64,000 nucleotides of DNA from Geothrix sp. 21YS21S-2 (GCF_030846775.1 NZ_CP132910.1:1708001-1772000); one strand, 5' to 3'; numbered from the stretch's first letter, positions 4,384 to 34,316 are shown. The notes: generated by a model from the sequence alone, not told the origin. A program made the numbers and translations.

Positions 4384-6738
4384 CTAGCCGATCGCCCGTA
4401 GCCGCTCCCGGAGATCCACGAGGCCGAACGGTTTGGGCAGGAGGGATACCCCGGCGTGGCCCGCCGCCACGTCCAGGGCCTCCTGGTCGGCTCGGCCGGT
4501 GGCGAGGAGGACGGGGACCTCCGGGCGCAGGGCCCGGAGGCGCGGCAGGGTGCCCCGCCCCCCCAGGCCGGGCATGTTCATGTCCAGGATCACCACATCG
4601 ACCTGGAGGCCCCGCTCCAGCAGGATCAGGGCGTCCTCCCCGCAGGCGGCGGTCGCCACGGCGTGGCCCTGCACCTCCAGCAGCAGGCGCGTGGAGGTGA
4701 GGACCAGTTCGTCGTCATCCACCACCAGCGCGGCCAGGACCCTTCCAGCCGGCTCCGGGCCCGGGGCGGGCGGGGCCTGCACGGGGAGTTCCCGGCGGAC
4801 GCCGGGCAGGAGGAGGCTGATCCGCGTTCCCCGCCCGGGCGCGCTGTCGATGTCCAGCTTCCCGTGGTGGGCCCTGACGGTGGAGTAGACCATGGACAGG
4901 CCCAGGCCCGTGCCCTTGCCGACGTCCTTGGTCGTGAAGAAGGGATCCAGGGCCCGCGCCAGGACCTCGGGGGCCATCCCGCAGCCCGAGTCCTCCACCT
5001 GCACTTCCGCCAGGTCCTCGCCCACGTTGCGGGTCCGGAGGGCGAGGGTCCCGCCCTCGGGCATGGCGTCCACCGCGTTCACGCAGAGATTCATGATGGC
5101 GTGGGCCAGGGCGCCGCCGTCGCCGTTGACGGTGCGCAGGTCCGGCGCGAGGTCCAGGTCCAGGCGGACCTTGGCCAGGGTGGTGCGCTCCAGGAGGCGG
5201 GCCTCCTCCAGCAGGAGGGCGTTCAGGTCCAGGGCCCGCCGTTCGGCGGGGCTCTTGCGCGCGAAGTTCAGAAGGCTCTTGACCAGGTTCCCGCCGCGGG
5301 TGGCGGCCTCCTGGATGGTCCCGAAGGCCTTGCGGGCCGGACTGCCCTCGGGCTCCAGGGTCAGGTGGGCCGAGGCCAGCCCCAGCACCGCCCCCAGCAC
5401 GTTGTTCATGTCGTGGGCCACGCCGCCCGCGAGGAGGCCCAGGCTCTCCATCTTCTGGGACTGGAGGAGCTGGGCGTGGAGGTGGGCGTTCTCCCGCTCG
5501 GCGCGCTTGCGGTCGGTGATGTCGTGGAGCACCCCGAAGACGACGCGCCTGGCCGGATCGTATTCGGCCAGGGAATGGACCTCGCGCTCCTCGCCGTCGC
5601 AGGCCCGTTGGATGACGAACTCGACGTTGTAGGGGACGCCCCGCTCGACCAGGTCCCCCAGGGCGGCGTCGAGCACGGGCCGGAACCCGGGCAGCACCCG
5701 GGCCTGCACCTCGGCCAGGGCCAGGTCGTCCCCCTCGAGGCCGTAGATCAGGTGGGCGCCCCTGGATGCGCGCATGAAGCCGTCGGCCAGGTTCAGCTCC
5801 CAGTTCCCGAAGGCGGCGACGCTCTCGGCCCGCTGCATCCGCGCGCGGCTGTCCCGGAGGGAGGCCTCGGCTTCCAGGCGGCGCTCCTCCAACGCCAGAT
5901 GGTCGAGGGCGAAGGAGATGTCCCCCGCGGCCTCCTCCATCAGGGCCACCTCGTGGACGCCGAAAAGGTCCCGCTCGGGCGCGTAGACGGTGAGGGCCCC
6001 GCGGACCACCCCCCCCAAGCGGATGGGGAAGGCGGCATAGGCCTTGAAACCGGCGCGGAGGGCGGCCCCATGCCACGGGCCCGAGAGGGCCGAGCCGAGG
6101 AAATCGTTGATCACGCAGGTGCGCCCGGTGCGTACCGCCGTCCCCGTTCCCCCGTATCCAAGGGGCGTGTCGTCGCTTCGGACCACCAGCCCCTCCAGGT
6201 AGCCCGTCGTGTCCCCATGGCTGGCCACGACCGCCACTTCGCGGGTGAGCGGGTCGTCCCAGCCGATCCAGGCCATGGTGAACGCCCCGAAGTCCACCAT
6301 CACTTCGCAGATCCTGGCCAGCAGGCCCTCCCGGGTGGGGGACCACACGATGGCCTGGTTCACCTGGCTGAGGGCGGCGTACAGCCGGGTCATCCGCTCG
6401 AGGCTCGCCTTCTGCGCGCGGGCCTCCGTGATGTCCTGGAGGACCACCAGCGTCCCGCAACCGGCGCCGGATTCCGCGGACACCCCCAGCCAGCGGGAGG
6501 CGCCGTCAGGTCCCGGCCACTCCAGGGCGCCCGTCCCGTCGAGGACTCCGGGCAGGGGCCGGGACAGCAGGAGGCGCCGGTCCACGCCCAGGATCCGCGA
6601 CGCCGCCGGGTTCGCCTCGATGCAGATGCCGGCGTCGTCCACCAGGATCACCCCCTGGGGCAGCGCGTCGAGAAGCGGCGTCCATCCCAGGGCCCCGGGA
6701 TCCAATGGCCTTCGCGTCTCCGTCGGGGAGCTTCCCAA
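4384..6738 (-). CDS. hybrid sensor histidine kinase (PAS-GAF-PAS-HisKA-HATPase-REC)
   Basis: A cytoplasmic hybrid kinase of 784 aa with no membrane segment. Order: PAS near residues 20-110, GAF near 120-290, second PAS near 305-410, HisKA with phospho-acceptor His about 442 in LLAGGVAHDMNNVLGAVL, HATPase with N-box NLCVNAVDAM and glycine boxes DSGCGM and GKGTGLGLS, then a receiver with phospho-acceptor Asp about 719 in VVILDMNMPG and KPFG. The TTG at 6738 is chosen because GGGAGG lies five bases upstream of it. An extended frame from TTG 6774 lacks such a site. The AHDMNN motif and the C-terminal receiver are typical of hybrid kinases. No output regulator is adjacent, so the partner is unknown. 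Confidence 0.88.
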   Translation of the reverse strand: MGSSPTETRRPLDPGALGWTPLLDALPQGVILVDDAGICIEANPAASRILGVDRRLLLSRPLPGVLDGTGALEWPGPDGASRWLGVSAESGAGCGTLVVLQDITEARAQKASLERMTRLYAALSQVNQAIVWSPTREGLLARICEVMVDFGAFTMAWIGWDDPLTREVAVVASHGDTTGYLEGLVVRSDDTPLGYGGTGTAVRTGRTCVINDFLGSALSGPWHGAALRAGFKAYAAFPIRLGGVVRGALTVYAPERDLFGVHEVALMEEAAGDISFALDHLALEERRLEAEASLRDSRARMQRAESVAAFGNWELNLADGFMRASRGAHLIYGLEGDDLALAEVQARVLPGFRPVLDAALGDLVERGVPYNVEFVIQRACDGEEREVHSLAEYDPARRVVFGVLHDITDRKRAERENAHLHAQLLQSQKMESLGLLAGGVAHDMNNVLGAVLGLASAHLTLEPEGSPARKAFGTIQEAATRGGNLVKSLLNFARKSPAERRALDLNALLLEEARLLERTTLAKVRLDLDLAPDLRTVNGDGGALAHAIMNLCVNAVDAMPEGGTLALRTRNVGEDLAEVQVEDSGCGMAPEVLARALDPFFTTKDVGKGTGLGLSMVYSTVRAHHGKLDIDSAPGRGTRISLLLPGVRRELPVQAPPAPGPEPAGRVLAALVVDDDELVLTSTRLLLEVQGHAVATAACGEDALILLERGLQVDVVILDMNMPGLGGRGTLPRLRALRPEVPVLLATGRADQEALDVAAGHAGVSLLPKPFGLVDLRERLRAIG

Positions 6739-6833
6739 GATTTCCTCCCGCGGGCCGCTGGACAGGCACCACAACCAGAAGATGAAAATTCAATTATTGC
6801 AGAAGGACGGGGCCAACGGGTAGGCATGCCCGC

Positions 6834-7508
6834 CTACCAGGGCAGCCCCAGCGCCTTGGCCAGGAACTTCTGCAGCGGGGCGTTCCGGCGGCAGATCTCC
6901 GTGTAGGCCTCCAGGAAGTCCCCGGCGCATATCTCCTTCTGCGTCAGGGGCTGGTGGGTGTAGAAGTCCTTGAGCTTCAGGTCCTCCGCCAGGGGGTGGG
7001 CCGCGTCGAAGCCCTGGGGCACGCGCACCAGGGACTCCCCCAGGACCTCCACGCCGGCCCCGCGGATGGCCTTCCATTCCCGGGGGTGGCCGACGATGCG
7101 GTCCCGCACGGCCTTCAGGGCCGCCGCGTCGGGACGCCACAGGCCCGCGCTGGCGAAGCAGCCGCCGGGCTCCAGGTGCAGGTAGAACCCGGGCGAGTGC
7201 ACGTCCCTGGAGCAGGCGCCGTGGCGGAACTGGGCGCCGACGTTGGTCTTGTAGGGGGACTTGTCCCGGGAGAAGCGCGTGTCCCGGAAGATGCGGAACA
7301 TGGAGCCGCCGCTGGGCCTGGGGTCGGCGAGGAAGTGGCGGCTGACGCCCGAGAGGGGCTCGCCGAAGGCCAGGATGAAGGCGAGGAGGGGGTCGCGCAC
7401 GTCCTCCTCGTACCGGGACCGGTTGTCCTGGAACCATTCCCGCGTGTTGTTCTCCCGCAGCTCCGTCAGGAACCGGAAGAAGGCCGGCGTGAACCACGGA
7501 TTCGCCAT
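6834..7508 (-). CDS. DUF2461 (TIGR02453-type) protein
   Basis: A conserved 224-aa cytoplasmic protein of unknown function. The family is recognisable from the N-terminal [22 protein letters not shown], the central [20 protein letters not shown] and the [10 protein letters not shown] segment, all diagnostic for DUF2461. The ATG at 7508 is preceded by GGAGG with good spacing. It is divergent from pgi across 75 bases, which must contain both promoters. The family has no established biochemical role that I can name with confidence. Confidence 0.85.
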
Positions 7509-7583
7509 TCCTGGACCTCCAGGCGCCCATTATCCCAGACGGGGCGCGGTTCCGCTAATCTGGAGGAAGAATTCGAGGCGCCC

Positions 7584-9209
7584 ATGACTCCGCTCACCCA
7601 ATCCCCAGCCTGGAAGGCGCTCCAAAGTCACCACCAGGAGATCCGGGGCCTCCACCTGCGCAGCCTCTTCGCCCAGGATCCGGGCCGCGGCGAGGCCATG
7701 GCCTGCGAGGCCGCGGGGCTGTACCTGGACTACTCCAAGAACCGGGCCACGGCCGCGACCCTGGGCCTGCTCACGGCCCTGGCCAGGGAGCGGGGGCTGG
7801 CCGAACGCATCGCGGCCATGTTCCGGGGGGACCGCATCAACATCACCGAGAACCGCGCCGTCCTCCACGTGGCCCTGCGGGCCCCCAGGGGAGCCGTGAT
7901 CGAGGTGGACGGCCGCAACGTCGTCCCGGAGGTCCACGCGGTCCTGGACCGTTGTGCCGCCTTCGCCGACGGCATCCGCTCGGGCTCCCGGAAGGGCTTC
8001 ACGGGCGAGGCCATCCGCACGGTGGTCAACATCGGCATCGGCGGCTCCGACCTGGGCCCGGCCATGGCCTACGAGGCCCTGCGCGCATACTCCGCGCGCG
8101 ACCTGCAGTTCCGGTTCGTCTCCAACGTGGACGCCACCGACTTCACCGAGGCGGTGAGGGACCTGGACCCCCGCACCACCCTCTTCGTGATCTCCAGCAA
8201 GACCTTCACGACCCAGGAGACCATGGCCAACGCCGCCAGCGCCCGGGCCTGGTGCCTGGAGACCCTGAAGGACGAGGCGGCCATCGCCAGCCACTTCGTC
8301 GCCGTCTCCACGGACGCCGCCAGGGTCTCGGCCTTCGGCATCGACACCGCCAACATGTTCGGGTTCTGGGACTGGGTCGGGGGCCGCTACTCCATGGACT
8401 CCGCCATCGGGCTCTCCACCATGATCGCCATCGGCCCCGGGCGGTTCCGGGAGTTCCTGGACGGCTTCCACGCCATGGACGAGCACTTCCGCACCGCCCC
8501 CTTCGAGCGGAACCTGCCGGTCATCATGGGCCTGCTGGGGGTCTGGTACGCCGACTTCTTCGGGGCCGGGACCGTCGCCGTGCTCCCCTACGACCACTAC
8601 CTGCGGCGCTTCCCGGCCTACCTCCAGCAGCTGGTCATGGAGAGCAACGGCAAGTCCGTCACCCTGGGCGGCGCGAAGGTGGACCACGCCACCAGCCCCG
8701 TGTACTGGGGCGAACCCGGCACCAACGGCCAGCACTCCTTCTACCAGCTCATCCACCAGGGCACCCACCTGATTCCCTGCGACTTCATCGCCTTCGCGAC
8801 CTCCCTCAACCCGCTGGGCGGCCACCACGCGATGCTGCTCAGCAACGTCCTCGCCCAGACCGAGGCCCTGGCCTTCGGCAAGACCGCCGAAGCCGTGGCC
8901 GGGGAAGGCACCCCCGCCTGGCTCGTGCCCCACCGGACCTTCGAAGGCAACCGCCCCTCCAACGTCCTCCTGGCCCCGCGCCTCACACCGGCGGTCCTGG
9001 GCAGCCTCGTGGCGCTGTACGAGCACGTGGTCTTCACCCAGGGCGCCATCTGGGACCTGAACTCCTTCGACCAGTGGGGGGTGGAGCTGGGCAAGGAGCT
9101 CTCCCGCAGGATCCTCCCCGAGCTGGAGGCCCGGGAGGAGCCCCTCCTGGCCCACGACAGCTCCACCAACGCGCTGATCCGCAGGCTGAGGGACGCAGCC
9201 CAATCCTGA
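7584..9209 (+). CDS. pgi: glucose-6-phosphate isomerase
   Basis: Interconverts glucose 6-phosphate and fructose 6-phosphate in glycolysis, gluconeogenesis and the pentose phosphate shunt. The protein is 541 aa, close to the long bacterial/eukaryotic form. Recognisable motifs are [37 protein letters not shown], catalytic Glu in MESNGKSV and [16 protein letters not shown] with the catalytic His, followed by the C-terminal [17 protein letters not shown] 7584 has GAGG five bases upstream. The CBS-pair gene follows after 98 bases with its own possible promoter. The zwf-pgl-gnd operon near 57 kb draws on the same substrate. Confidence 0.97.
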
Positions 9210-9253
9210 CGCCCGGCTCCTCAAATACAGATCCCAAAACACCTGCACGCCCG

Positions 9254-9281
9254 TTGACGAATCGGCGCAATGGTCTACCCT
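9254..9281 (+). promoter_or_regulatory. possible sigma-70 promoter for the CBS-pair gene
   Basis: TTGACG at 9254-9259 and TACCCT at 9276-9281 are separated by 16 bases. The -35 is good and the -10 matches only three of six positions. It lies 27 bases before the start codon. Confidence 0.3.
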
Positions 9282-9307
9282 TGAGCCAATCCTGAGGAGA
9301 ACAAGGC

Positions 9308-9751
9308 ATGACGGACATGAAGCGCATCCTGGACGCGAAGGGCTACACCTTCTTCTTCATATCGGCCGAGGCCAAGGTCGCCGACGCCGTGCGCCTCCTG
9401 GAGCAGAAGAAGGTGGGCTTCCTGCTGGTGATGGACGGCGAGCGCATGGAAGGCGTCTTCTCCGAGCGCGACGTGGTCAAGCTCATGGCCCGCAAGGGCC
9501 CCGGCGCCCTGGACCTGAAGGTGGAGGAGGTGATGACCACCTCCGTCTACCACGTCGGCATCCGGACGTCCGTGGACGAGGTCATGGGCCTCATGAGCGA
9601 GAAGGGCATCCGCCACGTGCCGGTGATGGACGGCAAGATGGTGGTGGGCGTGGTCTCGATCCGCGACGTGGTGGCCGAGGTCGTGGCGGACCGGGAGATC
9701 ACCATCAAGGGGCTGGAGAACTACATCGTCGGGACGGATTTCCGGACCTAG
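9308..9751 (+). CDS. CBS-domain pair protein
   Basis: A 147-aa protein consisting of two CBS motifs (about residues 12-65 and 78-135; for example GVFSERDVVKLMARKG and VVGVVSIRDVVAEV) with almost nothing else. Such stand-alone Bateman modules bind adenosine ligands such as AMP or ATP, or SAM, and regulate partner proteins. The ligand cannot be read here. The start has an AGGAG sequence in good position. It may be an energy-state sensor, but that is inference from the family only. Confidence 0.85.
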   Translation: MTDMKRILDAKGYTFFFISAEAKVADAVRLLEQKKVGFLLVMDGERMEGVFSERDVVKLMARKGPGALDLKVEEVMTTSVYHVGIRTSVDEVMGLMSEKGIRHVPVMDGKMVVGVVSIRDVVAEVVADREITIKGLENYIVGTDFRT

Positions 9752-9766
9752 GCAAAGACTGGCTGG

Positions 9767-9928
9767 TCAAAGCCTGGGCCTGATGACGGGACACGCGATC
9801 GTGACCATGGCCTCATGATTTCGGGTGTGCTTCCTTTTGGCGAACAGATTCTCCACTGCCTGGCGCGCCTGGTGGAGGAAGGCTTCATGGTCGATGGGGG
9901 CCTTCCATAGCTTTGGGATTGCCGTCAC
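9767..9928 (-). CDS. possible small or remnant gene, unrecognised
   Basis: A 53-codon frame from GTG 9928 to TGA. It contains AVENLFAKRKHTRNHEAM and ends in ACPVIRPRL. It lies between the stop of the CBS gene and the stop of nadE. Third positions are roughly two-thirds G/C, below the surrounding genes but above random expectation. It begins only nine bases after the nadE stop on the same strand. I do not recognise the sequence. It may be the tail of a decayed gene fused behind nadE, or not coding at all. Confidence 0.25.
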   Translation of the reverse strand: MTAIPKLWKAPIDHEAFLHQARQAVENLFAKRKHTRNHEAMVTIACPVIRPRL

Positions 9929-9936
9929 ACCCCAGG

Positions 9937-11649
9937 CTATTTGGCCGTCAGCGGGATTCGCCGTCCCCTCCCGAAGGCCCAGGGGCTCACCTTCAGGCTG
10001 AAGGGCAGCTGGCGCCGCTTGAATTCCGAATTCCGCAGCAGGGCGAAGACCCGGGGAAGCGCCGCCCGGGCCTGGTCCAGGGCCGGTCCGTCCAGCACGC
10101 AGGCCAGGTCCTCGAAGACAAGCTCCTCCTCCCGCCTCGCCTCCAGCAGGATCCCCAGGATCGCGTCCAGTTGGGCGTAGGGCATCAGGCTGGCCTCGTC
10201 GGTCTGGTCCGGCCTGAGCTCGGCGGTGGGCCTGCGGTTCAGGATGCCCGCGGGGATGGCGTCGCCCAGGTCCCTGGCCAGCGCGAAGACCCGCGCCTTG
10301 AGGCAGTCCCCCAGGATGCCGAAGGCGCCGATGCCGTCGCCGTAGAGGGTGAAGTAGCCGGTGGCGGCCTCGCTCTTGTTGCCGGTGTTCAGCACGGCGA
10401 CGCGGGTGGTGCCCAGGAGGCGGTGCACGGCGGGTTCCGAGGTGGCGCCCATGAGGAGCATGCCCCGGCAGCGGCTCTGGAAGTTCTCGTCGGTGAGGCC
10501 GAACTGGCGGTCCGGGAAGGCGGCCTCCAGGGCCTTGGCGGCCCCCGTGAAGGGCAGGCCGGCATCCAGCTCCAGGAAGGGGATGCCCAGCACCCGGGCC
10601 TGCTCCCGGGCCAGGGAGAGGCTCTCCTGGCTGGTGTAGGACGTGGGCAGCGCGATGCCCAGCACCCGCTCCGGGCCCAGGCTCCCGGCGGCCATCGCGG
10701 CCACCACGGAGCTGTCGATGCCGCCCGACAGGCCCACCACGGCCGCCTCCAGGCCCTGCTTGTCCATGTTCTCCCGCAGGCCGGTGCCCAGGGCCCGGCG
10801 CAGCCAGGCCTCCTCGCTGGGTTCGGCCGGCCAGGGCGAACCGGGCACGGAGGTGTCGGTCATGACCACCCCCTCCTTGAAGAACTCGTCCCGCTGCCAG
10901 GTGCCGTCGGGCAGCACGAGCCCCGAGCCGCCGTCGAAGGTGAGCCAGCTCTCCGAACCCACGCGGCTCGCGTAGGCGATGGGGAGCCCGTGCCGGGAGG
11001 CGTGGCCCTGGAGGAGCCTCTTGCGCAGGGCCAGCTTGGAGGGCGCGGCCCACGGGGCGGTGCGGCCCGGGGGCAGGAAGCTGCCCAGGTGGCCGGGGCT
11101 GGCGGAGGCGTTGAGGATGAGGGTGGCCCCCTGCTCCGCCAGATCCGCGATGGGGTCGAAGGCGTAGCGGATGGGACCCGGGGCGAGCTCGGCGTTGGCC
11201 CACAGGTCCTCGCAGACCGACAGGCCCACCTGCTCGCCCCGGTACGCCACCAGCGCCTGGCGCCCGTGGTCGGCCTCGAAGTACCGGCTCTCGTCGAACA
11301 CGTCGTAGGCGGGCAGGATGCGCTTGCGGGCCACGGTGCGCACCCGGCCCTCCTCGCACCACCACAGCTCGTTCCAGAGCCGGCCCGTGGGCGACGGGCT
11401 GCAGGTGCCGAACACCAGGGGCACGGCCCCGGAGAGCCCGGCCAGGCGCTCCGATTCCCGGGTCACGGCCCGGCGCAGCCCGGCCTCCCACAGGCGGTCC
11501 TCGGCCAGGTAGCCGCCCACGGCCATCTCGGCCGAGAGGACGAGGTCGGCCCCCAGGGACAGGGCCTCCCGGTAGGCGTCCTCCAGGGCGCGGCCGTTGG
11601 CTTCCGGGTCGCCCAGGCGGGAGTTGAGCTGGAGGAGGGCGATGCGCAT
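9937..11649 (-). CDS. nadE: glutamine-dependent NAD+ synthetase
   Basis: Makes NAD+ from deamido-NAD+, ATP and glutamine-derived ammonia. The 570-aa protein has an N-terminal nitrilase-fold glutaminase domain (about 1-250) with the Glu of LVLSAEMAVGGYL, the Lys of VARKRILPAYDVF and nucleophilic Cys in GLSVCEDLW. The C-terminal synthetase domain (about 285-560) has the P-loop VVGLSGGIDSSVVAAM and LNTGNKSEAATGYFTLYGD. Both halves are intact, so free ammonia is not required. It starts 18 bases after the truA stop, so the two genes are probably one transcript. Confidence 0.96.
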   Translation of the reverse strand: MRIALLQLNSRLGDPEANGRALEDAYREALSLGADLVLSAEMAVGGYLAEDRLWEAGLRRAVTRESERLAGLSGAVPLVFGTCSPSPTGRLWNELWWCEEGRVRTVARKRILPAYDVFDESRYFEADHGRQALVAYRGEQVGLSVCEDLWANAELAPGPIRYAFDPIADLAEQGATLILNASASPGHLGSFLPPGRTAPWAAPSKLALRKRLLQGHASRHGLPIAYASRVGSESWLTFDGGSGLVLPDGTWQRDEFFKEGVVMTDTSVPGSPWPAEPSEEAWLRRALGTGLRENMDKQGLEAAVVGLSGGIDSSVVAAMAAGSLGPERVLGIALPTSYTSQESLSLAREQARVLGIPFLELDAGLPFTGAAKALEAAFPDRQFGLTDENFQSRCRGMLLMGATSEPAVHRLLGTTRVAVLNTGNKSEAATGYFTLYGDGIGAFGILGDCLKARVFALARDLGDAIPAGILNRRPTAELRPDQTDEASLMPYAQLDAILGILLEARREEELVFEDLACVLDGPALDQARAALPRVFALLRNSEFKRRQLPFSLKVSPWAFGRGRRIPLTAK

Positions 11650-21615: not shown

Positions 21616-22740
21616 ATGTGCGCCGCCCCCCTCCTCCCCCTTGAAGATGCCCTCCGGATCCTGGCCGCCGCCTTTCCTCCCCCGGAAACCCCGGAAATCC
21701 GCGCCGACCGGGACGATCCGGCCCTGGACCTGAGCTCCATGGACGGAGCCGCCCTCAGCAGCCGGGACCTCGCCGCGCCCCGCCGGGTCCTGGGCACCCT
21801 CTTCGCCGGGGACGACCCCGCCGCCTTCCGGGTGGAACCCGGCACCTGCGTGCGCATCATGACCGGGGCCGCCCTGCCCCCCGGGGCCGACGCCGTGGTG
21901 CCCGTGGAGGACCTCGTCCAGGGGCCCGAGGGCCTGACCCCGGCGGCGCCCCCCCCGCCCGGATCCAATGTGCGCCCCCGGGGCTCCCAGGCCCGGAAGG
22001 GGGACCTGCTTCTGGCCGCCGGCGCCGCGGCGGGAGCGGGCCGGGCGGGTCTCCTGGCCCAGGTGGGGATGCCGGCGCCCCCCCTCGCACGGGTCCGCGT
22101 GGGGATCGTCCCCACCGGCGACGAGCTCACCGACCGTCCCGCGCCCCACCAGATCCGGGACAGCAACGGGCCCATGCTGGAGGCCCTGGCCCACGCCCTG
22201 GGCGCCGACGTGGTCCGGCTCCCCCCCCTCCCGGACCGCCCCGAGGCCGTGCGCGACTTCCTCCGGGGCCTGGGCTCCCTGCAGATACTGGTCACCTCCG
22301 GCGGCGTGTCGGCCGGGGACAAGGACCACCTCCCCCGGGTCCTGGAGGACCTGGGCGCCCGCATCCTCTTCCACAAGATCCGCCTCAAGCCCGGCAAGCC
22401 CATGCTCACGGCCCTCCTGGACGGGCGGGTGATCCTGGGCCTCCCCGGCAACCCGGTGTCCTCCTACATGAACGCCCTGCTCTTCCTGCCCGTGGCCATG
22501 GCGGGGATCCAGGGCCGGCGCGCCCCCGACCCGTGGAAGGAGGGGCGCCTGGCCGCCGCGGTGCGCAACCCCGGGGACCGGCCCCTGCTCCAGCCCTGCC
22601 GGCGCGACGGGAAGGAACTCCATCCCCTGGAAAGCAAGGGCTCCGCGGACCTGGTGCGCCTGGCCCAGGCCGACGCCTTCGCGTGGGTGCCCGAGGGCGG
22701 AATGGAGGCCGGCCCGACCCGGTACCTGGACGTCCTATAG
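21616..22740 (+). CDS. moeA: molybdopterin molybdenumtransferase
   Basis: Inserts molybdate into adenylated molybdopterin to finish the molybdenum cofactor. The 374-aa protein is slightly shorter than E. coli MoeA (411). Key segments are SSMDGAALSSRDL near residue 40, IMTGAALPPGADAVVPVED, the MoCF-like domain with VGIVPTGDELTD and VTSGGVSAGDKDHL, FHKIRLKPGKPML, and LGLPGNPVSS. Start ATG 21616 lies 37 bases from the divergent rel start; a longer frame from 21577 would overlap rel. Its stop overlaps that of the convergent chemoreceptor gene by six bases. No other moa/mob gene is in the window. Confidence 0.93.
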   Translation: MCAAPLLPLEDALRILAAAFPPPETPEIRADRDDPALDLSSMDGAALSSRDLAAPRRVLGTLFAGDDPAAFRVEPGTCVRIMTGAALPPGADAVVPVEDLVQGPEGLTPAAPPPPGSNVRPRGSQARKGDLLLAAGAAAGAGRAGLLAQVGMPAPPLARVRVGIVPTGDELTDRPAPHQIRDSNGPMLEALAHALGADVVRLPPLPDRPEAVRDFLRGLGSLQILVTSGGVSAGDKDHLPRVLEDLGARILFHKIRLKPGKPMLTALLDGRVILGLPGNPVSSYMNALLFLPVAMAGIQGRRAPDPWKEGRLAAAVRNPGDRPLLQPCRRDGKELHPLESKGSADLVRLAQADAFAWVPEGGMEAGPTRYLDVL

Positions 22741-24267
22741 CCTGAACTTCTGCACCAGGTCCTTCATCTCCTCCGCAACGCCGGAGAGTTCCTCTGCGGT
22801 CCGGGTGATCTCGTGGACGGTGGCCGACAGCTCCGCGGTGGCCGCGGCGTTCTGCTCCAGGCGGGTGGAGGTGTGCTCCATCAGGCCCTTCACCTCCACC
22901 CCGGTCTGCCCCTGTTCCCGTGCGAGGCCCTCGATGCCGCGGATGCTGCCGGACACCTCGGAGATGCGGCTCCGGATGTCGTCCAGGCGCTCCAGGGTGG
23001 TGGCGACGCTCTGCACCCCGCCCTTCACGGCGTCCTGGGTCTGGCCGATGATCTCCTCGATCTCCCGGGCGGCCAGGGCGCTGCGTTCGGCCAGCTTGCG
23101 GACCTCCTCGGCCACCACGGCGAAGCCCTTGCCCTGGGCCCCGGCCTTGGCGGCCTCGATGGCGGCGTTGAGCGAAAGCAGGTTGGTCTGCCGGGCGATG
23201 TCCTGGATGACCCGGATGGCCTGGTTGATGCGGGAGGTGGCCTGTTCGATCTGCTGCATCCCTTGTGCCGCGCCCTGGCCGGCCAGGGCGCCCTGGTCCG
23301 TGTCCCGCACCGCGACGCCGGTCTCCGCCACCGTGCGCCGGGTGTGCTCGTCCATGGCCTGGACGTTGCCCATGAGGCGCTGCAGGGCCGTCATCACCTG
23401 CTGTCCGGCCTCCCGCAGGGCCTCGCCCCCCCGGGCCGCGTCGTCCACCGTCCGCACCATCTCGTCGGCGCTGGCCGCGAGTTCGGTGCTGCCCGAGGCC
23501 ACCTGTTCCGAGGCCTTCTCCACCCTGAGCAGCGCCCCGTTGAGGTCGTGGACCATCCCGTTGAAGGCCGACCCCAGCTGGCCGATCTCGTCGTCGCTGC
23601 GCACCTCGGTGCGGACGGTGAGATCCCCCTGGGCGATCCTCAGGATCGACCCTGACAGTTCAGCCAGGGGGGCCAGGATGACCCGCCGGACGAAGTAGGT
23701 GATCAGGGCGCTGATCGCCGCGAGCACCAGGAGCCCAGCCCCCAGGCACAGGATCCTGAGGTTGCGCACCTCCCGGCGCAGGGGCTCCATGGAGACGGAG
23801 ACCCCGAAGGCCGCCACCAGGTCCCCCACCTTGCTTCCCTTGAACCGGTCGATGCCGAAGGCCTGGTGGCAGGTCACGCAGGATTCGGCGATCCGGGCCG
23901 GGGCGAAGGCCACGAGGTTGGGTCTGCCTTCGCCGTCCGTGAACTCCCGGGCCATCGACTCCAGCTTCGCGTCGCCCCCGAAGGACCGCAGGACGCTCTG
24001 CTCGTAGGCGCCCTCCTCCCCGGCCTCGGCCTTGTCCCCCACGATGACCCGGTGGAACTTCATGCCCCGGGAGCGGCAGTAGTCCTCCGCCTCCGAATGC
24101 ATCATGGACCGGGAGGTGGTGGCCAGGGAGGTGAGGTGCTCCCGGAAGGCCTGCTCCGCCCTCCGGGTCTGGAGGGACCCGATGAAGAGCACCACCACCC
24201 CCACCACCAGGGCCAGGGCGCCGCCGACGGGAAGGAAGAACTTCAACGCCAGACCACGCTTGGCCAT
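22735..24267 (-). CDS. methyl-accepting chemotaxis protein with c-type haem sensor
   Basis: A transmembrane chemoreceptor of 510 aa. TM1 spans about residues 9-31 and TM2 about 171-193. The periplasmic part (32-170) contains ESCVTCHQAFG, a CxxCH site (Cys130, Cys133, His134) for covalent haem c, in a domain resembling the Tll0287/DUF3365 haem sensors. A HAMP linker follows TM2 (ILAPLAELSGSILRIAQGDL). The signalling tip is present (QTNLLSLNAAIEAAKAGAQG and AVVAEEVRKLAERS). Covalent haem implies sensing of redox state, NO or O2, as described for Geobacter receptors. ATG 24267 has GGAG at good spacing. No C-terminal CheR/CheB pentapeptide is visible. Confidence 0.92.
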   Translation of the reverse strand: MAKRGLALKFFLPVGGALALVVGVVVLFIGSLQTRRAEQAFREHLTSLATTSRSMMHSEAEDYCRSRGMKFHRVIVGDKAEAGEEGAYEQSVLRSFGGDAKLESMAREFTDGEGRPNLVAFAPARIAESCVTCHQAFGIDRFKGSKVGDLVAAFGVSVSMEPLRREVRNLRILCLGAGLLVLAAISALITYFVRRVILAPLAELSGSILRIAQGDLTVRTEVRSDDEIGQLGSAFNGMVHDLNGALLRVEKASEQVASGSTELAASADEMVRTVDDAARGGEALREAGQQVMTALQRLMGNVQAMDEHTRRTVAETGVAVRDTDQGALAGQGAAQGMQQIEQATSRINQAIRVIQDIARQTNLLSLNAAIEAAKAGAQGKGFAVVAEEVRKLAERSALAAREIEEIIGQTQDAVKGGVQSVATTLERLDDIRSRISEVSGSIRGIEGLAREQGQTGVEVKGLMEHTSTRLEQNAAATAELSATVHEITRTAEELSGVAEEMKDLVQKFRL

Positions 24268-24349: not shown

Positions 24350-25090
24350 TCACTTCGTGGCCGGGTCGATCCGTTTCCGGGTCGTCGGCGTCATGGCCCG
24401 GCTGACGGTCAGTTCCACCCGGGGCGCGACCAGCACCTTGATCCTTCCCGTGGCCAGGGGCCGGAACCCCCTGACCATTTCGGGGCGCAGGAGGATGTGG
24501 CGCTGGATGCGCAGCATGCCTTCCTCGGGGAACGCGTCCTCCACATCGGAAAGCGTGGTCCAGCGGGTCAGGTACCTGTTCAGGCCCCGGAACGCCCAGA
24601 CCCGGTCCTGGCTGAGCTCGAAATGGGTCACGTGGCTCAATTCCATGAAGATCTCCCCTTCCCCCGCAAGGATCGGAAACCGCGGGAGCGTGGGGAGAAG
24701 GCTGCGCAACTCGGAGGGGCTGAGGCGCCGGACCAGGCGCTCCCGGACCCGCTGGAGGCACTTGAACAGGCGTTCCTCGAAAACGGGCTTCAGGAGGTAG
24801 TCCACCGCCGAGAGTTCGAAGGCCCGGACCGCGTATTCCGAAAAGGCCGTCACGAATACGACCGGGGGGGGATTCCGCGCGTCGGCCAGGACCTCCATGC
24901 AATTGGGTCCCGGCATCTGGATGTCGAGGAAGATCACGTCAGCCTCGGCGGGCCCCTGGAGCCACTCCAGGAGGGCCAGGCCATTCCCGAGGTTGCCGAC
25001 CACTTCGCAGCCGGCCTCCTCGAGGAGCCGCGTCATTCGTTCCCGGGCCAAAGGTTCATCATCCACGACCAAGGCATTCAGACGTCGCAT
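24350..25090 (-). CDS. LytTR-family response regulator
   Basis: A 246-aa transcription regulator. The receiver domain (about 1-120) has the acidic pair VVDDEP, phospho-acceptor Asp56 in IFLDIQMPG and Lys103 in YLLKP. The LytTR DNA-binding domain (about 145-235) has HFELSQDRVWAFRGLNRYL and the terminal MLRIQRHILLRPEMVRGF signature. LytTR proteins bind two direct repeats in an elongated beta fold. The kinase gene ends 12 bases upstream, so they form one unit. Two matching repeat pairs lie in the divergent promoter at 26435-26490, the likely targets. After Asp56 the motif reads IQMPGPN, an ordinary receiver. Confidence 0.92.
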   Translation of the reverse strand: MRRLNALVVDDEPLARERMTRLLEEAGCEVVGNLGNGLALLEWLQGPAEADVIFLDIQMPGPNCMEVLADARNPPPVVFVTAFSEYAVRAFELSAVDYLLKPVFEERLFKCLQRVRERLVRRLSPSELRSLLPTLPRFPILAGEGEIFMELSHVTHFELSQDRVWAFRGLNRYLTRWTTLSDVEDAFPEEGMLRIQRHILLRPEMVRGFRPLATGRIKVLVAPRVELTVSRAMTPTTRKRIDPATK

Positions 25091-25102
25091 GGGTAGAGAC
25101 CC

Positions 25103-26107
25103 CTAGAGGATTTTAAGTTCGATCCGGGCGAGGGTGCCGCCTTCGGAGGCTCCCAGCGAGAACTGCGCCTCGTCCCCGTAGGCAAGCGCCAGGCGGGCCC
25201 TGAGGTTCTTCACGCCGACGCCCTGGCTTTGCCGTTTCAGGAGGAAGGGCTCACCGGAATTCCAGATCTGGAAGGTGACCAGGCCGTCCGCCCCCTGCGC
25301 CCGGACGATCAGGTCGCCGCCCTCGAGACTCGGGGAAATCCCGTGCTTGATGGCGTTCTCCACGAGCGGTTGCAGAAGGAGGGGCGGGATTTCCAGGGTA
25401 TCCAGGCGGTCGTCCCACTCCCAGGCCACCCGGAGCCGGCTTCCCAGGCGCATGGATTCGATGGCCAGATAGTCCGTCACGAGGCTGCGCTCCTCGCCAA
25501 GGGGGAAGGTCGCCTGTTCCGAGGCCCGCAGGATCCGCCGCAGGAGGTCCGAAAGGTGATGGATGGCCCGCTCCGCCGACACGGGGTCCTTGTGGACCAG
25601 CTCCGCCAACCCGTTCAGTGCGTTGAAAAGCACATGGGGATGGATCTGGCTCTGGAGGAGCCGCGTCTTGGCGATCTGGGCTTCGGTCATCGAGGCTTCT
25701 CGAAGTTCTTCGGAACGGGCCCGGGCGGCGATGAGACCTCCCACGACCATCAGGGCCGGCCCCACCAGGGACGTGTAGAGGAGGACGACCTTGCGGAAAT
25801 TGAAATCGAATCGGCCATTGGCAAGCATCCAGGCATCAGGGAACGGGAGCGCCGCGGCCACCAGTTCGCAACCGGCAAGGGAGAGCAGAAGCCCCAGGAT
25901 GAAGGCCCAGGGAGTCCGGAACCGCTGCGTCAGGAGCCACGGCAGGGGAGCGAGGAAAACGAACGTCACGACGTGCGTGAAGGGGGAGATGACCGCGTTC
26001 CCCCACAACCAGGGATTGCCGAGCCTTCCGTTCAGGCCGTGTCCGACGAGAACGGCGAGGACCCACAGGAGGTAGCAGGCCAGGATCGAAACCCTGCTCT
26101 TCCACAT
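25103..26107 (-). CDS. LytS/AgrC-like sensor histidine kinase
   Basis: A 334-aa membrane kinase of the His_kinase (PF06580) type. Four hydrophobic segments occupy the first 130 residues (near 7-24, 40-62, 65-88 and 106-127). The cytoplasmic part has the phospho-acceptor His about 158 in QIHPHVLFNALNG, the N-box LLQPLVENAIKHGI and the G-box GVGVKNLRARL. It pairs with the LytTR regulator directly downstream. ATG 26107 is chosen because the longer frame from ATG 26239 starts with Ser/Pro codons ending mostly in A, unlike this genome, and overlaps the better-supported peptide gene. Neither ATG has a good Shine-Dalgarno, so the start is unsure. Kinases of this architecture often sense peptides. 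Confidence 0.85.
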   Translation of the reverse strand: MWKSRVSILACYLLWVLAVLVGHGLNGRLGNPWLWGNAVISPFTHVVTFVFLAPLPWLLTQRFRTPWAFILGLLLSLAGCELVAAALPFPDAWMLANGRFDFNFRKVVLLYTSLVGPALMVVGGLIAARARSEELREASMTEAQIAKTRLLQSQIHPHVLFNALNGLAELVHKDPVSAERAIHHLSDLLRRILRASEQATFPLGEERSLVTDYLAIESMRLGSRLRVAWEWDDRLDTLEIPPLLLQPLVENAIKHGISPSLEGGDLIVRAQGADGLVTFQIWNSGEPFLLKRQSQGVGVKNLRARLALAYGDEAQFSLGASEGGTLARIELKIL

Positions 26108-26180
26108 CGGGAAGTAGGCGATCCGGCCGGCCCCCGCGGCCCCGAATCCATAGGGGACCAGGTCCGCGGGCCCGATGGGC

Positions 26181-26360
26181 TCAGTCCAGCCAATCGGTGT
26201 GGGTGAGGGTCGTGGTGATGGTGATGCTGGCCTCTCCATGGTTAATCGCCGAGCGCCCCCCCCGGGTGTCCTGCTTCAAAGGGGACTTGCCTGCCAGGCT
26301 TCCACTTGCGGCACTGGCGGGCTGGAGGGATTCCTTCCGAAAGGGGAATGGGCTGGTCAT
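26181..26360 (-). CDS. candidate RiPP precursor peptide, Thr-rich, cysteine-free
   Basis: A 59-aa frame found by reading the minus strand upstream of the kinase. TTGGAG lies at ideal spacing (five bases) before ATG 26360, and a TATAAA box is 60 bases upstream. The peptide starts MTSPFPFRKESLQ. It continues through a Ser/Ala/Gly/Lys-rich middle that includes SAASGSLAGKSP and TRGGRSAINHG, and ends with EASITITTTLTHTDWLD, where seven of 16 residues after Glu are Ser or Thr. There is no Cys, so lanthionine rings are impossible without partners. The last 20 codons are almost all C/G-ending, whereas the overlapping kinase frame there is mostly A-ending. FRKESLQ recalls the K-x-[ST]-L box of class I lanthipeptide leaders (inference). 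Location across the promoter from lanB makes it the probable dehydratase substrate. Confidence 0.65.
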   Translation of the reverse strand: MTSPFPFRKESLQPASAASGSLAGKSPLKQDTRGGRSAINHGEASITITTTLTHTDWLD

Positions 26361-26419
26361 GGGAACTCCAAGGTCGCGTCACCGGACGCAACCTTGGTGT
26401 AACCTCCCACCCACCCGGC

Positions 26420-26450
26420 TTTATAGAAATTCCCATGAACGGAATGTAAA
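26420..26450 (-). promoter_or_regulatory. possible promoter of the peptide-kinase-regulator operon
   Basis: TTTACA (26450-26445) and TATAAA (26425-26420), read on the minus strand, are separated by 19 bases. The -10 is good; the long spacer suits an activated promoter. One LytTR box lies inside the spacer. Confidence 0.45.
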
Positions 26451-26490
26451 CCACGGCCGAACGGTTGGGCGCAAAAAAAACACCGTTCAC
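26435..26490. promoter_or_regulatory. divergent LytTR operator (two direct-repeat pairs)
   Basis: The published LytTR consensus is [TA][AC][CA]GTTN[AG][TG] twice, with a 12-13 bp spacer. On the minus strand ACCGTTCGG (26465-26457) and TCCGTTCAT (26443-26435) both match at 9/9 with a 13-bp spacer. On the plus strand ACGGTTGGG (26461-26469) and ACCGTTCAC (26482-26490) each match at 8/9 with a 12-bp spacer. The two pairs overlap at the centre and point to the peptide operon and lanB respectively. The inner boxes also share downstream sequence (14 of 17 positions, CCGTTCA to ATTYC). Confidence 0.6.
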
Positions 26491-26506
26491 GCGAATTCCA
26501 TGGCTT

Positions 26507-26521
26507 CACGGCCAGGCCGTG
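26507..26521. promoter_or_regulatory. short palindrome in the lanB leader
   Basis: CACGGCC-A-GGCCGTG is a perfect 7-bp inverted repeat 40 bases before the lanB ATG. It could be an additional operator or a leader hairpin; nothing more can be said. Confidence 0.3.
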
Positions 26522-26560
26522 GCCACCTGGAATCCCATTCCGATCCTGGGAAGACCGACC

Positions 26561-29500
26561 ATGCGCCCACCCGCCCTTTGCCATGCTTCAACCCGGTTCC
26601 TGCTCCGGAGCCCCGCCCTGCCCCTCGAGGTGCTTCAGGCCTGGGCGCAGGACGGCCCGTCCTCCGGGGACGGGGAGGAGGCGCGTGAGGCCCTCCGCCG
26701 GAGGATGCGGTCGAGCCTGGAGAAGAACGCCGTCCTGGAAGCCTTGGCGGTCGCGTCGCCGGACCTTTCATCCCGGATCCAGGCCTGGGCCGACGGCGGC
26801 CTGCGGGGCAAGGAGGCCCGGAACCTCGACCATGGCCTGGTGAAGTACCTGGCCCGCATGGCCTCCCGATGCACGCCCTTCGGTCTTTTCGCGTCCGTCT
26901 CCCTCGGCGGGTGGGGCGATGGCAATTCCCTGGCCCTGGGGCCATGGGAGGAGGCAAGGCGCCATGCGCGGCTGGATTGGGGGGTGGTGGGGCGGCTGCA
27001 GGCCCTTCTGGAGGACATGCCGCAGGCCGTCGCGTCCGCAAGCTACCGGCCCAACACGACCCTGCACCCCTTCGGGGGCTGGTACCGGTATCTGAAGGTC
27101 TCGCACGAGGGCGGCAGGGGGGCCGCCTACCACCTCGAGGCGGTCGAACAGACCCGCCCGCTGCGGTGGGTGATCGACCGTTCCGGCACGGGCGCCCGGC
27201 TCGGGGAGCTGGCCGGGGAGCTGGCCCGTTTCATGGGAACCCGGGAAGACGAAGCCAGGGCGTACCTGGATCTCCTGGCCGAATCCCAGGTCCTGGCCGG
27301 GGATCTGCAGCCCCCCCTCACCCAGGGCGATCCCATCGACCGGCTGTTGGAGCGGTCCGGGGAGGGTCCCCGGCCCGGCCCCTGGAAGGCAGCCCTGGAG
27401 GCGGTCCGGAACGGGATCGGAGAGCTGGGCCGGACACCCGTCGGGAGCCACCCGGAAGGGTACCGGCAGGTGGTGGCGCCGCTGGAGGAGCTCGGACTGC
27501 CGGACCTGCAGGATCCCCTGCAGGTCGACGTGTTCCGCCCCGCGCCGGGCCTCATGCTCTCGGGGGCGGTCCGCGCCGCGCTGGAGGCGGGCATCGAAAC
27601 CCTCCGCCGGGTGACGCCCGCAAGGACCGGAGGCCCCATGGCGCGGTTCCGGAGCGCCTTCCGGGAGCGCTATGGGGATCGGTGGGTTCCACTCCTGGAG
27701 GTCCTGGACGAGGAGTCGGGCATCGGCTTCGACGGGGAGGTCCCGGTGGCCTCCCCCCTGCTCGAGGGGCTCGGGATCCCCACCGGGGAGGGCCCGTCGC
27801 CTCCCCCCTATCCCGAAAGGGACCGGTTCCTCGCGGGCCGGCTGCAGCGGCTGGACGGGGCCCGGGTCCTGGACCTGGGCCCGGAGGACCTGGACGCCTT
27901 GGCGCCGGGGGACCTTCCGGCCCTGCCGGCCTCCTTCGCCGCCATGGCCGTCCTGGCCGCCTCCTCCATGGACGCGCTGGACGGGGGGGATTTCCAGTTC
28001 TTCATGGAAGGCTATTCGGGGCCCAGCTCGGCGCGGTTGCTGGGGCGTTTCGCCCCCGGCGAACCCGGACTCGAGGCCGCGCTGGTGGAGGACCTTCGCC
28101 GGGAGGAGGCGCTCAGGCCGGACGCGGTCTTCGCCGAAGTGGTCCACAACCCCGGCGGCCGCCTGGGCAATGTCCTGGTCCGCCCCCGGTTGAGGCCGTT
28201 CGAGATTCCGGTCCTCGCGACCCCAGGCGTCCCCTGGTCCCATGCCATCCTGCTTTCGGACCTGCGGGTGCGGGTCGTTTCCGACCGCGCGGTGCTGGCG
28301 TCGGCGAGACTGGGCAAGGAAGTGATTCCCCGCCTCTCCACCGCCCACAATTTCAGGCTCGGCCCCCCCGCCTACCGGTTCCTGGCGCACCTCCAGGACC
28401 AGGAATGTCCGCCGGGAGGGTGGTCATGGGGCACCCTGGCGGACCTGCCGTTCCTGCCCAGGGTGACCTGCGGGCGCCACGTGCTGAGCAAGGCGCGGTG
28501 GCGGCTGTCGGGCCCTGAACTGCGGGCCGCTTTGGCCGGAGCCTCCCGGAGCGCCTGCGAAGCCTTCGGGCGCCTGCGCAGGCAGCGCGGCCTTCCCCGG
28601 CACGTGGTGCTCGCCGACGCGGACAACGCCCTCCCCTTCGACCTCGATCAGGAGCTCTGGGTGGAGACGCTCTGCCACCTTGTGGCGGGGCGGGAGGCCT
28701 TCACCCTCACGGAGTGCTTTCCCCCCTTCGGTCAGGGCCTGGCGTCGGCCCCCGAGGGAACCTTCGCCCACGAGCTGGTGGTCCCGTTCGAATCCGAGCC
28801 GCCGCCGCCGCCCAGCCCCGCCCGCCTCCTGCAGTCGCTCGAGGCGCCCCAGGTCCGCTCCTTCCTGCCGGGGTCCGAATGGCTCTTCCTGAAGGTCTAC
28901 TGCGGGCATGCCGCGGCCGACCGGATCCTGGCCGAGCTCGCCCCGGCGTTTCGCGCGGCGAAGGAGGAGGGGTGGTGGGACCAGTGGTTCTTCCTGCGAT
29001 ACGGGGACCCGGGCGATCACCTCAGGTTGCGGTTCCATGGGGCTCCGGGCCTGCTGCTCGGCGTATGGCTGCCGCGCCTTTCGGAGCACCTCGAGCGGCT
29101 CCGGGGCCAGGGGCTGCTCTGGAAGGTCCAGGTCGACACCTACGAGCCGGAACAGGCCCGCTACGGAGGACCCGAAGGCCTTCGCCTGGCGGAGGCCTGG
29201 TTCCATGAGGACAGCCAGGCGGTACTGGATTCCATCCTTGCGGGGGATGACCACGCGACGCGGTGGCAGAGGGGGCTGGCCGAGGTCGACCGGATCTGGA
29301 CCGGCCTCGGGCTGGACCTCCAGGCCAGGAAGGCCCTGGCCGTGAATTCACGAATCGCCTTCCGGAAGGAATTCGGCGACCCGGGAGCGGCCGGGACGGG
29401 GAAGACCTTCCGAAGGTTCAGGGAGGCCCTGGAGACGCGGGTCCCCGCGCCGGAAGGCCCCGCCGCGGATCCCGTGAGCCCCGCGCTCCTGGCCCTGAGG

Positions 29501-29731
29501 GAGGCCGGGGCCCGGGGCCAGCTGCAGGGGACGATCCAGGACCTGGCTTCGAGCCTCTCCCACATGCACCTCAATCGCCTTCTCCGAAGCCACCAGCGTG
29601 CGCAGGAATGGGTGCTCATGGAATTCCTCGCCCGGTTGTACGATTCCGCCCAGGCGAAAGAACGGCACCGCGGGGAAAGGAAAGGCCTGGGCGCCGCCCT
29701 CCGGCTTCCTGGATCCCCGGACCCGGACTGA
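26561..29731 (+). CDS. full-length lantibiotic dehydratase (LanB)
   Basis: A 1056-aa enzyme of the class I lanthipeptide dehydratase family. The N-terminal glutamylation domain (about 1-740) shows the family motif MASRCTPFGLFASVSLG near residues 100-116. The C-terminal SpaB-type elimination domain (about 760-1040) has EWLFLKVYCG and WFFLRYGDPGDHLRLRFHG. Known LanBs attach glutamate from glutamyl-tRNA to Ser/Thr and then eliminate it to give dehydroalanine or dehydrobutyrine. Both halves are joined and complete, unlike split thiopeptide enzymes. ATG 26561 is preceded by GGGAAG; an upstream TTG would lie inside the operator. No LanC cyclase, protease or exporter gene is adjacent. The divergent peptide and LytTR genes are its likely partners. 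Confidence 0.93.
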   Translation: MRPPALCHASTRFLLRSPALPLEVLQAWAQDGPSSGDGEEAREALRRRMRSSLEKNAVLEALAVASPDLSSRIQAWADGGLRGKEARNLDHGLVKYLARMASRCTPFGLFASVSLGGWGDGNSLALGPWEEARRHARLDWGVVGRLQALLEDMPQAVASASYRPNTTLHPFGGWYRYLKVSHEGGRGAAYHLEAVEQTRPLRWVIDRSGTGARLGELAGELARFMGTREDEARAYLDLLAESQVLAGDLQPPLTQGDPIDRLLERSGEGPRPGPWKAALEAVRNGIGELGRTPVGSHPEGYRQVVAPLEELGLPDLQDPLQVDVFRPAPGLMLSGAVRAALEAGIETLRRVTPARTGGPMARFRSAFRERYGDRWVPLLEVLDEESGIGFDGEVPVASPLLEGLGIPTGEGPSPPPYPERDRFLAGRLQRLDGARVLDLGPEDLDALAPGDLPALPASFAAMAVLAASSMDALDGGDFQFFMEGYSGPSSARLLGRFAPGEPGLEAALVEDLRREEALRPDAVFAEVVHNPGGRLGNVLVRPRLRPFEIPVLATPGVPWSHAILLSDLRVRVVSDRAVLASARLGKEVIPRLSTAHNFRLGPPAYRFLAHLQDQECPPGGWSWGTLADLPFLPRVTCGRHVLSKARWRLSGPELRAALAGASRSACEAFGRLRRQRGLPRHVVLADADNALPFDLDQELWVETLCHLVAGREAFTLTECFPPFGQGLASAPEGTFAHELVVPFESEPPPPPSPARLLQSLEAPQVRSFLPGSEWLFLKVYCGHAAADRILAELAPAFRAAKEEGWWDQWFFLRYGDPGDHLRLRFHGAPGLLLGVWLPRLSEHLERLRGQGLLWKVQVDTYEPEQARYGGPEGLRLAEAWFHEDSQAVLDSILAGDDHATRWQRGLAEVDRIWTGLGLDLQARKALAVNSRIAFRKEFGDPGAAGTGKTFRRFREALETRVPAPEGPAADPVSPALLALREAGARGQLQGTIQDLASSLSHMHLNRLLRSHQRAQEWVLMEFLARLYDSAQAKERHRGERKGLGAALRLPGSPDPD

Positions 29732-29776: not shown

Positions 29777-29898
29777 GGACGGTTCGGGGGAATCCGCGAG
29801 GTTTCGGCCCCAGGAAGGGCAGGATCGAGTCACCTCGCATAAGGGGACCCATCGGGAGGAAAGATGACACCGTACGCGGACGGTTCCGGAGAATCCGC
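29777..29898 (+). repeat. 21-bp imperfect direct repeat around the KTSC-like gene start
   Basis: GGACGGTTCGGGGGAATCCG at 29777 (21 bp with its last base) recurs at 29878-29898 with two mismatches. Both copies read DGSGESA in the same relative frame, so the upstream copy looks like a remnant of a duplicated gene start. Confidence 0.6.
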
Positions 29899-30088
29899 CA
29901 TTCAGGCCTACGAGCTTGGCGAAGGGCAGCTCACCGTCAAGTTCAAGGACGGCCGGGTCCGCCTCTACACCAACGCCAGCGCGGGAGCCTTCAACATCCA
30001 GCAGATGCAGGTCCTGGCTTCGGCGGGCAGGGGCCTGGGCACCTTCATCGACCTTTTCGTCGGCATCGGGTACGAAAGGAAGTGGTAG
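29864..30088 (+). CDS. small KTSC-like domain protein
   Basis: A 74-aa protein with a perfect GGAGG ribosome-binding site. The core SAIQAYELGEGQLTVKFKDG, then RVRLYTNASAGAFNI and a glycine-containing helix (ASAGRGLGTFID), follows the pattern of KTSC-domain proteins: beta hairpins plus a C-terminal helix, often linked to nucleic-acid or tRNA-synthetase contexts. The exact KTSC residues are not conserved, so the match is tentative. It follows lanB by 132 bases on the same strand and may be co-expressed. Whether it takes part in peptide modification is unknown. Confidence 0.6.
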   Translation: MTPYADGSGESAIQAYELGEGQLTVKFKDGRVRLYTNASAGAFNIQQMQVLASAGRGLGTFIDLFVGIGYERKW

Positions 30089-30231: not shown

Positions 30232-30324
<93 letters not shown>

Positions 30325-34225: not shown

Positions 34226-34316
34226 GGAAGGCTGGCCGAGTGGTTTATGGCTCTCGTCTTGAAAACGAGCGTGGGTGATGAGCCCACCGGGGGTTCGAAT
34301 CCCTCGCCTTCCGCCA
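34226..34316 (+). tRNA. tRNA-Ser(UGA)
   Basis: A 91-nt class II tRNA with encoded CCA. GGAAGGC pairs with GCCTTCC, the T loop is GGTTCGAATC, and a long variable arm is present. The anticodon loop CTTGAAA reads UGA, for UCA and other UCN codons. Confidence 0.96.

Follow-up and report, generated by a model that had tools for sequence, protein, structure and literature searches.

A candidate peptide-based self-sensing circuit in Geothrix and related Holophagaceae, combining a LanB dehydratase with a LytS/LytTR pair

Why does a full-length LanB, the dehydratase of class I lanthipeptide clusters, lie divergently beside a short peptide gene, a sensor kinase and a LytTR regulator in Geothrix sp. 21YS21S-2? 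We analyzed a 64-kb window (G000:C1:1708001-1772000; all coordinates are counted from its first letter) of the genome of this bacterium, a single contig of 5.25 Mb from the family Holophagaceae, in which the peptide open reading frame (ORF), the histidine kinase (HK) and the LytTR response regulator (RR) are co-directional on the minus strand and LanB is divergent on the plus strand. The locus resembles a new type of peptide-based self-sensing circuit more than it does an antibiotic cluster. That the four genes form a real anatomical unit is nearly certain. A LanB search covering 77 genomes of the family, with flanks retrieved around the matches, identified the four-gene module at about 33 loci in Geothrix, a bacterium of soils and sediments, and its relatives; at every same-clade LanB locus with intact flanks, HK and RR are arranged divergently from LanB in the same way, and a homologous peptide lies between LanB and HK at all related loci in which that stretch is present. 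Clustering of all predicted neighboring genes detected nothing conserved beyond these four. The original prediction, made from this DNA alone, had placed the peptide, kinase and regulator in line with the modification enzyme divergent, an order and orientation with which both Pfam and the coordinates agree, and had named comparative synteny as a check that could reveal the kinase-regulator pair to be unrelated to lanB. The synteny points the other way: because it holds at about 33 loci, a chance neighborhood of lanB and the pair is ruled out. The features of the locus are as follows.

24350..25090, minus strand: response regulator with receiver and LytTR domains, 246 aa (Pfam PF00072, PF04397); adjoins the kinase in related loci with complete flanks.
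25103..26161, minus strand: PF06580 (LytS/YehU-type) sensor histidine kinase (Pfam); start uncertain, between 26178 and 26107.
26181..26360, minus strand: precursor peptide, 59 aa, MTSPFPFRKESLQPAS...GEASITITTTLTHTDWLD; supported by homologues at related loci, a window-free profile and synonymous bias.
26368..26397, minus strand: hairpin of the 5′ untranslated region, with a 13-bp stem in the window; adjoins the Shine-Dalgarno sequence (GGAG) of the peptide and is kept in relatives.
26433..26444, minus strand: predicted LytTR half-site R3, TTCCGTTCATGG; relatives keep ACCGTTCATGG.
26457..26466, minus strand: predicted LytTR half-site R2, AACCGTTCGG; 22 bp from R3.
26480..26488, minus strand: predicted LytTR half-site R1, GAACGGTGT; 22 bp from R2, reading ACACCGTTC towards lanB.
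26561..29731, plus strand: full-length LanB dehydratase with glutamylation and elimination domains, 1056 aa (Pfam; structure alignments).

The Pfam assignments are for the ORFs at 26561-29728(+) (Lant_dehydr_N, E 1e-145; Lant_dehydr_C, 1e-56), 25103-26239(-) (PF06580 His_kinase, E 3e-20) and 24350-25090(-) (Response_reg, E 7e-21; LytTR, 2e-5). The LanB start, 26561, differs from the mechanical ORF start. Since the listed kinase start at 26239 would create an out-of-frame overlap with the peptide, translation of the kinase probably begins close to the peptide stop (26181) or beyond it, and at the latest at 26107. The peptide and kinase frames nearly overlap.

By itself, the peptide ORF (26181-26360) matched no known family; a profile constructed from the peptides of the relatives, with the window excluded, picks this ORF alone among the 479 ORFs of the window (E 2.4e-13; next 0.7). 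The family consensus is MNxSLSFRKESIQRSSxASE...AREQxPISLTTLLTL. Met1 and Glu10 never vary in it, and there is almost no variation at L5, F7, R8, K9, Q13, S16, S19 and one core Thr; the leader carries the motif FRKES(I/L)Q, whereas the C terminus is Thr-rich and Cys-free (30% Thr and 0% Cys in the last 14 residues). Cys is absent from 28 of the 29 peptides, and the lone Cys sits in a leader. The peptide sequence itself is under codon-level constraint that goes beyond its translation, with a synonymous fraction of 0.50 in the peptide (leader) frame, whereas 200 column shuffles averaged 0.26 (sd 0.07) and reached at most 0.46. There is one peptide homologue per module, and no homologues or same-leader peptides were found above background outside the modules in the 77 genomes. 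The genome with two complete modules (G047; L062 and L063), which differ in both peptides and kinases, accordingly has two homologues. LanC-type clusters elsewhere in the phylum encode KLxLxKETI...GG precursors with Cys cores; the module leader resembles theirs (L-x-F-x-K-E-[ST]-[IL]) in motif only, as the NF038153 hidden Markov model gave no match to it and matched the precursor of a relative from another Acidobacteriota family (G177) weakly, below the cut-off (E 0.019). No GG cleavage motif is present in the module peptides.

The enzyme that would act on this peptide has a conserved active site. The window LanB aligns with MibB (5ehk, 9g04) and NisB (4wd9), and the positions of NisB Y80/R83/R87/T89, R464, E823/R826 and H961 are kept across the module LanBs; R464 and E823/R826 presumably have functional roles in NisB. 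Mutants of NisB at Y80, R83, R87 and H961 are known to lose function (PMC4341554). LanB is intact, with its active-site residues, in nearly all copies in several genera. LanC, in contrast to the sister clusters, was detected in no module neighborhood. Given the homology of the enzyme, dehydration of the peptide by LanB is highly probable, and because the dehydratase would work without a substrate Cys and without LanC, the product is predicted to be linear and to bear dehydrobutyrine or dehydroalanine. The partnership is further supported by three loci (L140-L142, in G010, G011 and one of the G021 copies) that keep HK, RR and the R2-R3 operator and have lost the peptide and LanB together, with a 78-aa ORF in the place of LanB; these loci share their neighbors and probably go back to a single event.

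What the regulator controls is indicated by the DNA in the gap between the peptide and LanB. Upstream of the peptide there are three half-sites (GAACGGT, AACSGTT and WCCGTTCATGG), at a spacing of 22 bp in almost every locus. LytTR sites in the literature consist of 9-bp repeats separated by about 12 bp (PMC2766830), and a case with three repeats has been described (PMC11347149); the predicted sites R1-R3 and their spacing fit this pattern. At spacers from 8 to 19, the window of 64 kb contains no consensus LytTR double site other than R2-R3. Moreover, AACGGTT-N15-WACCGTT occurs exactly once per genome in 28 genomes, always in the module gap, and never in module-free genomes, while the reversed control pattern yields a handful of unrelated matches. 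A one-mismatch search for a wider regulon in ten genomes returned scattered single matches, below a roughly estimated expectation, and no recurrent target. Because the predicted operator of the regulator occurs solely at this module, the circuit is very likely self-regulating, and judging by its anatomy we hold autoregulation of the module with strong confidence. Since R1 and R2 match the consensus when read towards lanB in many relatives, the regulator may act on both divergent promoters. The hairpin downstream of these sites is conserved in 26 loci, with 88% of its pairs kept vs 39-49% paired in slid-structure controls; covariation is modest (4 pairs changed on both sides; 6/500 shuffles as high).

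With respect to the sensor, the characteristic features of LytS/LytTR pairs are all present, namely a PF06580 kinase with a phospho-acceptor His (conserved motif QIHPHVLFNALNGL), the receiver Asp and the LytTR output domain. In the AlphaFold2 model of the kinase (mean pLDDT 80.8; helices 18-43, 50-70, 85-104 and 122-170), which agrees with the hydropathy peaks, there are four predicted membrane helices and no extracytoplasmic domain. A fold search of the PDB with the kinase matched kinase cores and gave no match to the membrane domain. The clue to the ligand comes from an exploratory covariation test on 21-28 sequences. Distances between peptide cores track those of the HK membrane domain once the kinase domain is controlled for (partial r 0.36-0.45) and do not track the kinase domain (partial r -0.03, against 0.38 for the membrane domain), whereas the leader, the middle part, promoter DNA, and LanB and RR stretches display the opposite pattern; the pattern of the core was seen in 0 of 104 control windows, which overlap one another. 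The signal peaks in the region of the first predicted outer loop, with a second high near the fourth helix. On these comparative grounds the chance that the peptide is the kinase ligand is, in our estimate, even.

We hypothesize the following sequence of events. LanB would bind the leader (LSFRKESIQ) and, using glutamyl-tRNA, dehydrate Thr and Ser residues of the Cys-free C-terminal segment, steps that are well supported by homology, and the product would stay a linear, hydrophobic peptide rich in dehydrobutyrine. The four-helix membrane domain of the kinase would sense this product, and the kinase would drive the LytTR regulator onto the single operator, which would set the expression of the peptide, kinase, regulator and probably lanB through either positive or negative feedback. 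The product would thus be a signal or an intramembrane reporter, with no exported antibiotic involved, and the module would most likely have originated from a LanC-containing lanthipeptide cluster via loss of the cyclase, the cysteines and the exporter. We consider the odds evenly balanced that the locus is such a self-contained, autoregulated circuit, built on a peptide that is dehydrated and linear. The fuller proposal is put forward tentatively, at somewhat less than an even chance: the linear, Cys-free, LanB-dehydrated peptide would be a new type of bacterial signal and the cognate ligand of the LytS-type kinase with its four helices, and these Gram-negative Acidobacteriota would possess a minimal self-sensing circuit of four genes that does without a dedicated exporter. 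Several observations weigh against the circuit reading. The short stretch of non-peptide DNA between the core and the kinase likewise follows the membrane domain (partial r 0.39), and because this adjacent DNA behaves alike, the covariation may reflect the exchange of one linked DNA cassette. Furthermore, the kinase pair can persist without the peptide and LanB, as it does in G010, G011 and G021; the other copy in G021 has the peptide, kinase and regulator beside a truncated LanB; and neither a protease site nor an exporter was identified for the peptide.

The same persistence of the kinase, regulator and operator in three genomes is what would be expected if the peptide were the output rather than the input of the system, that is, if the kinase sensed the state of the envelope or membrane, or a metabolite, and served only to switch on a LanB-modified peptide that acts elsewhere, for instance in the cell's own membrane. 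The lack of an extracytoplasmic domain in a kinase with four membrane helices is compatible with this scenario, as is the operator that is unique to the module, which makes the module itself the regulated output. The covariation of the core with the membrane domain speaks against it unless caused by linkage, and a sole regulated product that is a peptide, encoded directly upstream of the sensor, is more reminiscent of a ligand with its receptor than of a sensor with its effector; we regard this scenario as rather unlikely, albeit worth serious consideration. A self-inducing, bacteriocin-like antimicrobial RiPP (ribosomally synthesized and post-translationally modified peptide) cluster, with exporter and immunity genes elsewhere in the genome, is improbable. 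The LanB family is associated with antibiotics, nisin-type clusters are autoinduced by their own product, and some carriers (G000, G067, G019 and G034) encode a C39 domain protein elsewhere in the genome. Nevertheless, the neighbor-gene clustering revealed no conserved gene for export, proteolysis or immunity at any module, and no C39 peptidase domain was detected anywhere in the genomes of 8 of the 13 carriers tested, which makes the antibiotic reading weak; the earlier observation that no immunity or export gene is seen nearby is borne out and extends to the relatives. Moreover, without Cys and LanC no thioether rings can form, the GG motif is missing, and several sister LanC-type clusters do keep HlyD, ABC and peptidase-like genes nearby.

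That the module is what is left of a decaying class I lanthipeptide cluster might be suspected from the loss of LanC, cysteines and exporter, from the truncation of LanB in G021, and from the related LanB-LanC-LytS-LytTR arrangement in G177. The retention of LanB and its active site across genera, the conservation of peptide, operator and gene order over deep divergence (about 50% LanB identity), and the constraint on the peptide already largely refute this idea, to which we give very little credence. Equally slight is the probability of a cis-acting leader, whereby the peptide ORF and the hairpin would govern how the kinase is translated, and LanB, as a consumer of glutamyl-tRNA, would couple this to tRNA charging. 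The conserved hairpin does abut the Shine-Dalgarno sequence, and the closely spaced peptide and kinase frames would suit such control; constraint on the peptide sequence beyond mere translation, the likeness of its leader to those recognized by LanB, and the loss of the peptide together with LanB all argue against it.

The provenance of the module is suggested by its relatives. In a quick maximum-likelihood tree computed without bootstrap, the HK-linked LanBs form one group (SH-aLRT 98) that adjoins the LanC-linked LanBs, and the sister LanBs in the family are accompanied by LanC, several of them also by HlyD and ABC/peptidase-like genes, with no adjacent HK-RR pair. One such cluster is found in the genome of Geothrix sp. 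21YS21S-2 itself (L003, G000:C1:3157000-3174000), where a second full-length LanB (7782-11012) is accompanied by LanC (5635-7041) and a CAAX protease-like gene (7209-7757), and the kinase pair is absent. A third LanB-related gene of this genome (L072, G000:C1:1058124-1059029) matches only in the C-terminal, elimination-domain part. Outside the family, the pairing of LanB with HK was encountered in the phylum only in G177 (L138, G177:C144), where LanB, LanC and a related LytS/LytTR pair occur with a Cys-containing precursor, KLKLNKETL...GG; this arrangement is possibly ancestral.

Around the module, a methyl-accepting chemotaxis protein (MCP) gene with a Tll0287-like sensor domain (22735-24267, minus strand) lies 83 nt downstream of the regulator and was rejected as an operon member, being absent from the conserved content of other modules. 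A 74-aa hypothetical ORF (29864-30088, plus strand) lies just downstream of LanB and has homologues at the corresponding position in L048 and L052. Two tRNA-Ser genes are located nearby (gct, 30232-30324, minus strand; tga, 34226-34316, plus strand).

Comparison with known systems suggests that the module probably works like an autoinducing peptide circuit and yet is a member of neither the lanthipeptide, NisRK nor Agr families, because their defining features were tested for and are not all present. With class I lanthipeptide clusters (nisin, KLxLxKETI-type leaders, NF038153) it shares a full-length LanB and a short precursor whose leader bears a motif resemblance to L-x-[LF]-x-K-E-[TS]-[IL], and its sister LanB clusters within the family include LanC and, in many cases, HlyD and ABC genes; the module differs in having no LanC, core cysteine, exporter or GG motif. 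As in NisRK and SpaRK, a two-component system is genetically tied to a LanB-modified peptide and to its own promoter. NisRK, however, consists of a HisKA kinase and an OmpR-type regulator (for lanthipeptide clades, see PMC10663231), in contrast to the PF06580 and LytTR proteins of the module and its peptide without rings or a dedicated exporter. In Agr, Sil and Blp systems, a kinase and a LytTR regulator control their own promoters through direct repeats with a period of about 21-22 bp, and the peptide gene belongs to the same group (PMC2766830); the gene content and predicted sites of the module match this layout, but it differs in the kinase family, the LanB-modified peptide, its occurrence in Gram-negative Acidobacteriota and the absence of an exporter. 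Neither an AgrB protease gene conserved nearby nor a Cys-bearing AgrD thiolactone precursor is present. Thus, of the parallel with NisRK and Agr drawn in the original prediction, a probable functional likeness stands, whereas kinship with either does not. In Clostridium, the LanM-like protein CA_C0082 adjoins agr, lacks catalytic residues and is an effector dispensable for signal production (PMC10301443); there, too, a protein resembling a lanthipeptide synthetase neighbors a quorum-sensing system based on a peptide, but the module LanB keeps its active-site residues and has a substrate peptide of its own.

A search of the open-access literature, with subscription literature outside its reach, returned no description of this module and no peptide signaling of this kind in Acidobacteriota. 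Most peptide signals known to act through two-component systems come from Gram-positive bacteria, and most known LanB products are antibiotics. If the proposed circuit is real, it would be a case of lanthipeptide enzymes put to use in making a linear signal, in a module that combines a dehydratase and a Cys-free substrate with a dedicated sensor and operator and has neither cyclase nor exporter. Named relatives include Geothrix limicola and an uncultured Holophagaceae bacterium; the module is carried by the named strain G. limicola Red804, in which Acidobacteriota would gain a compact and testable peptide system.

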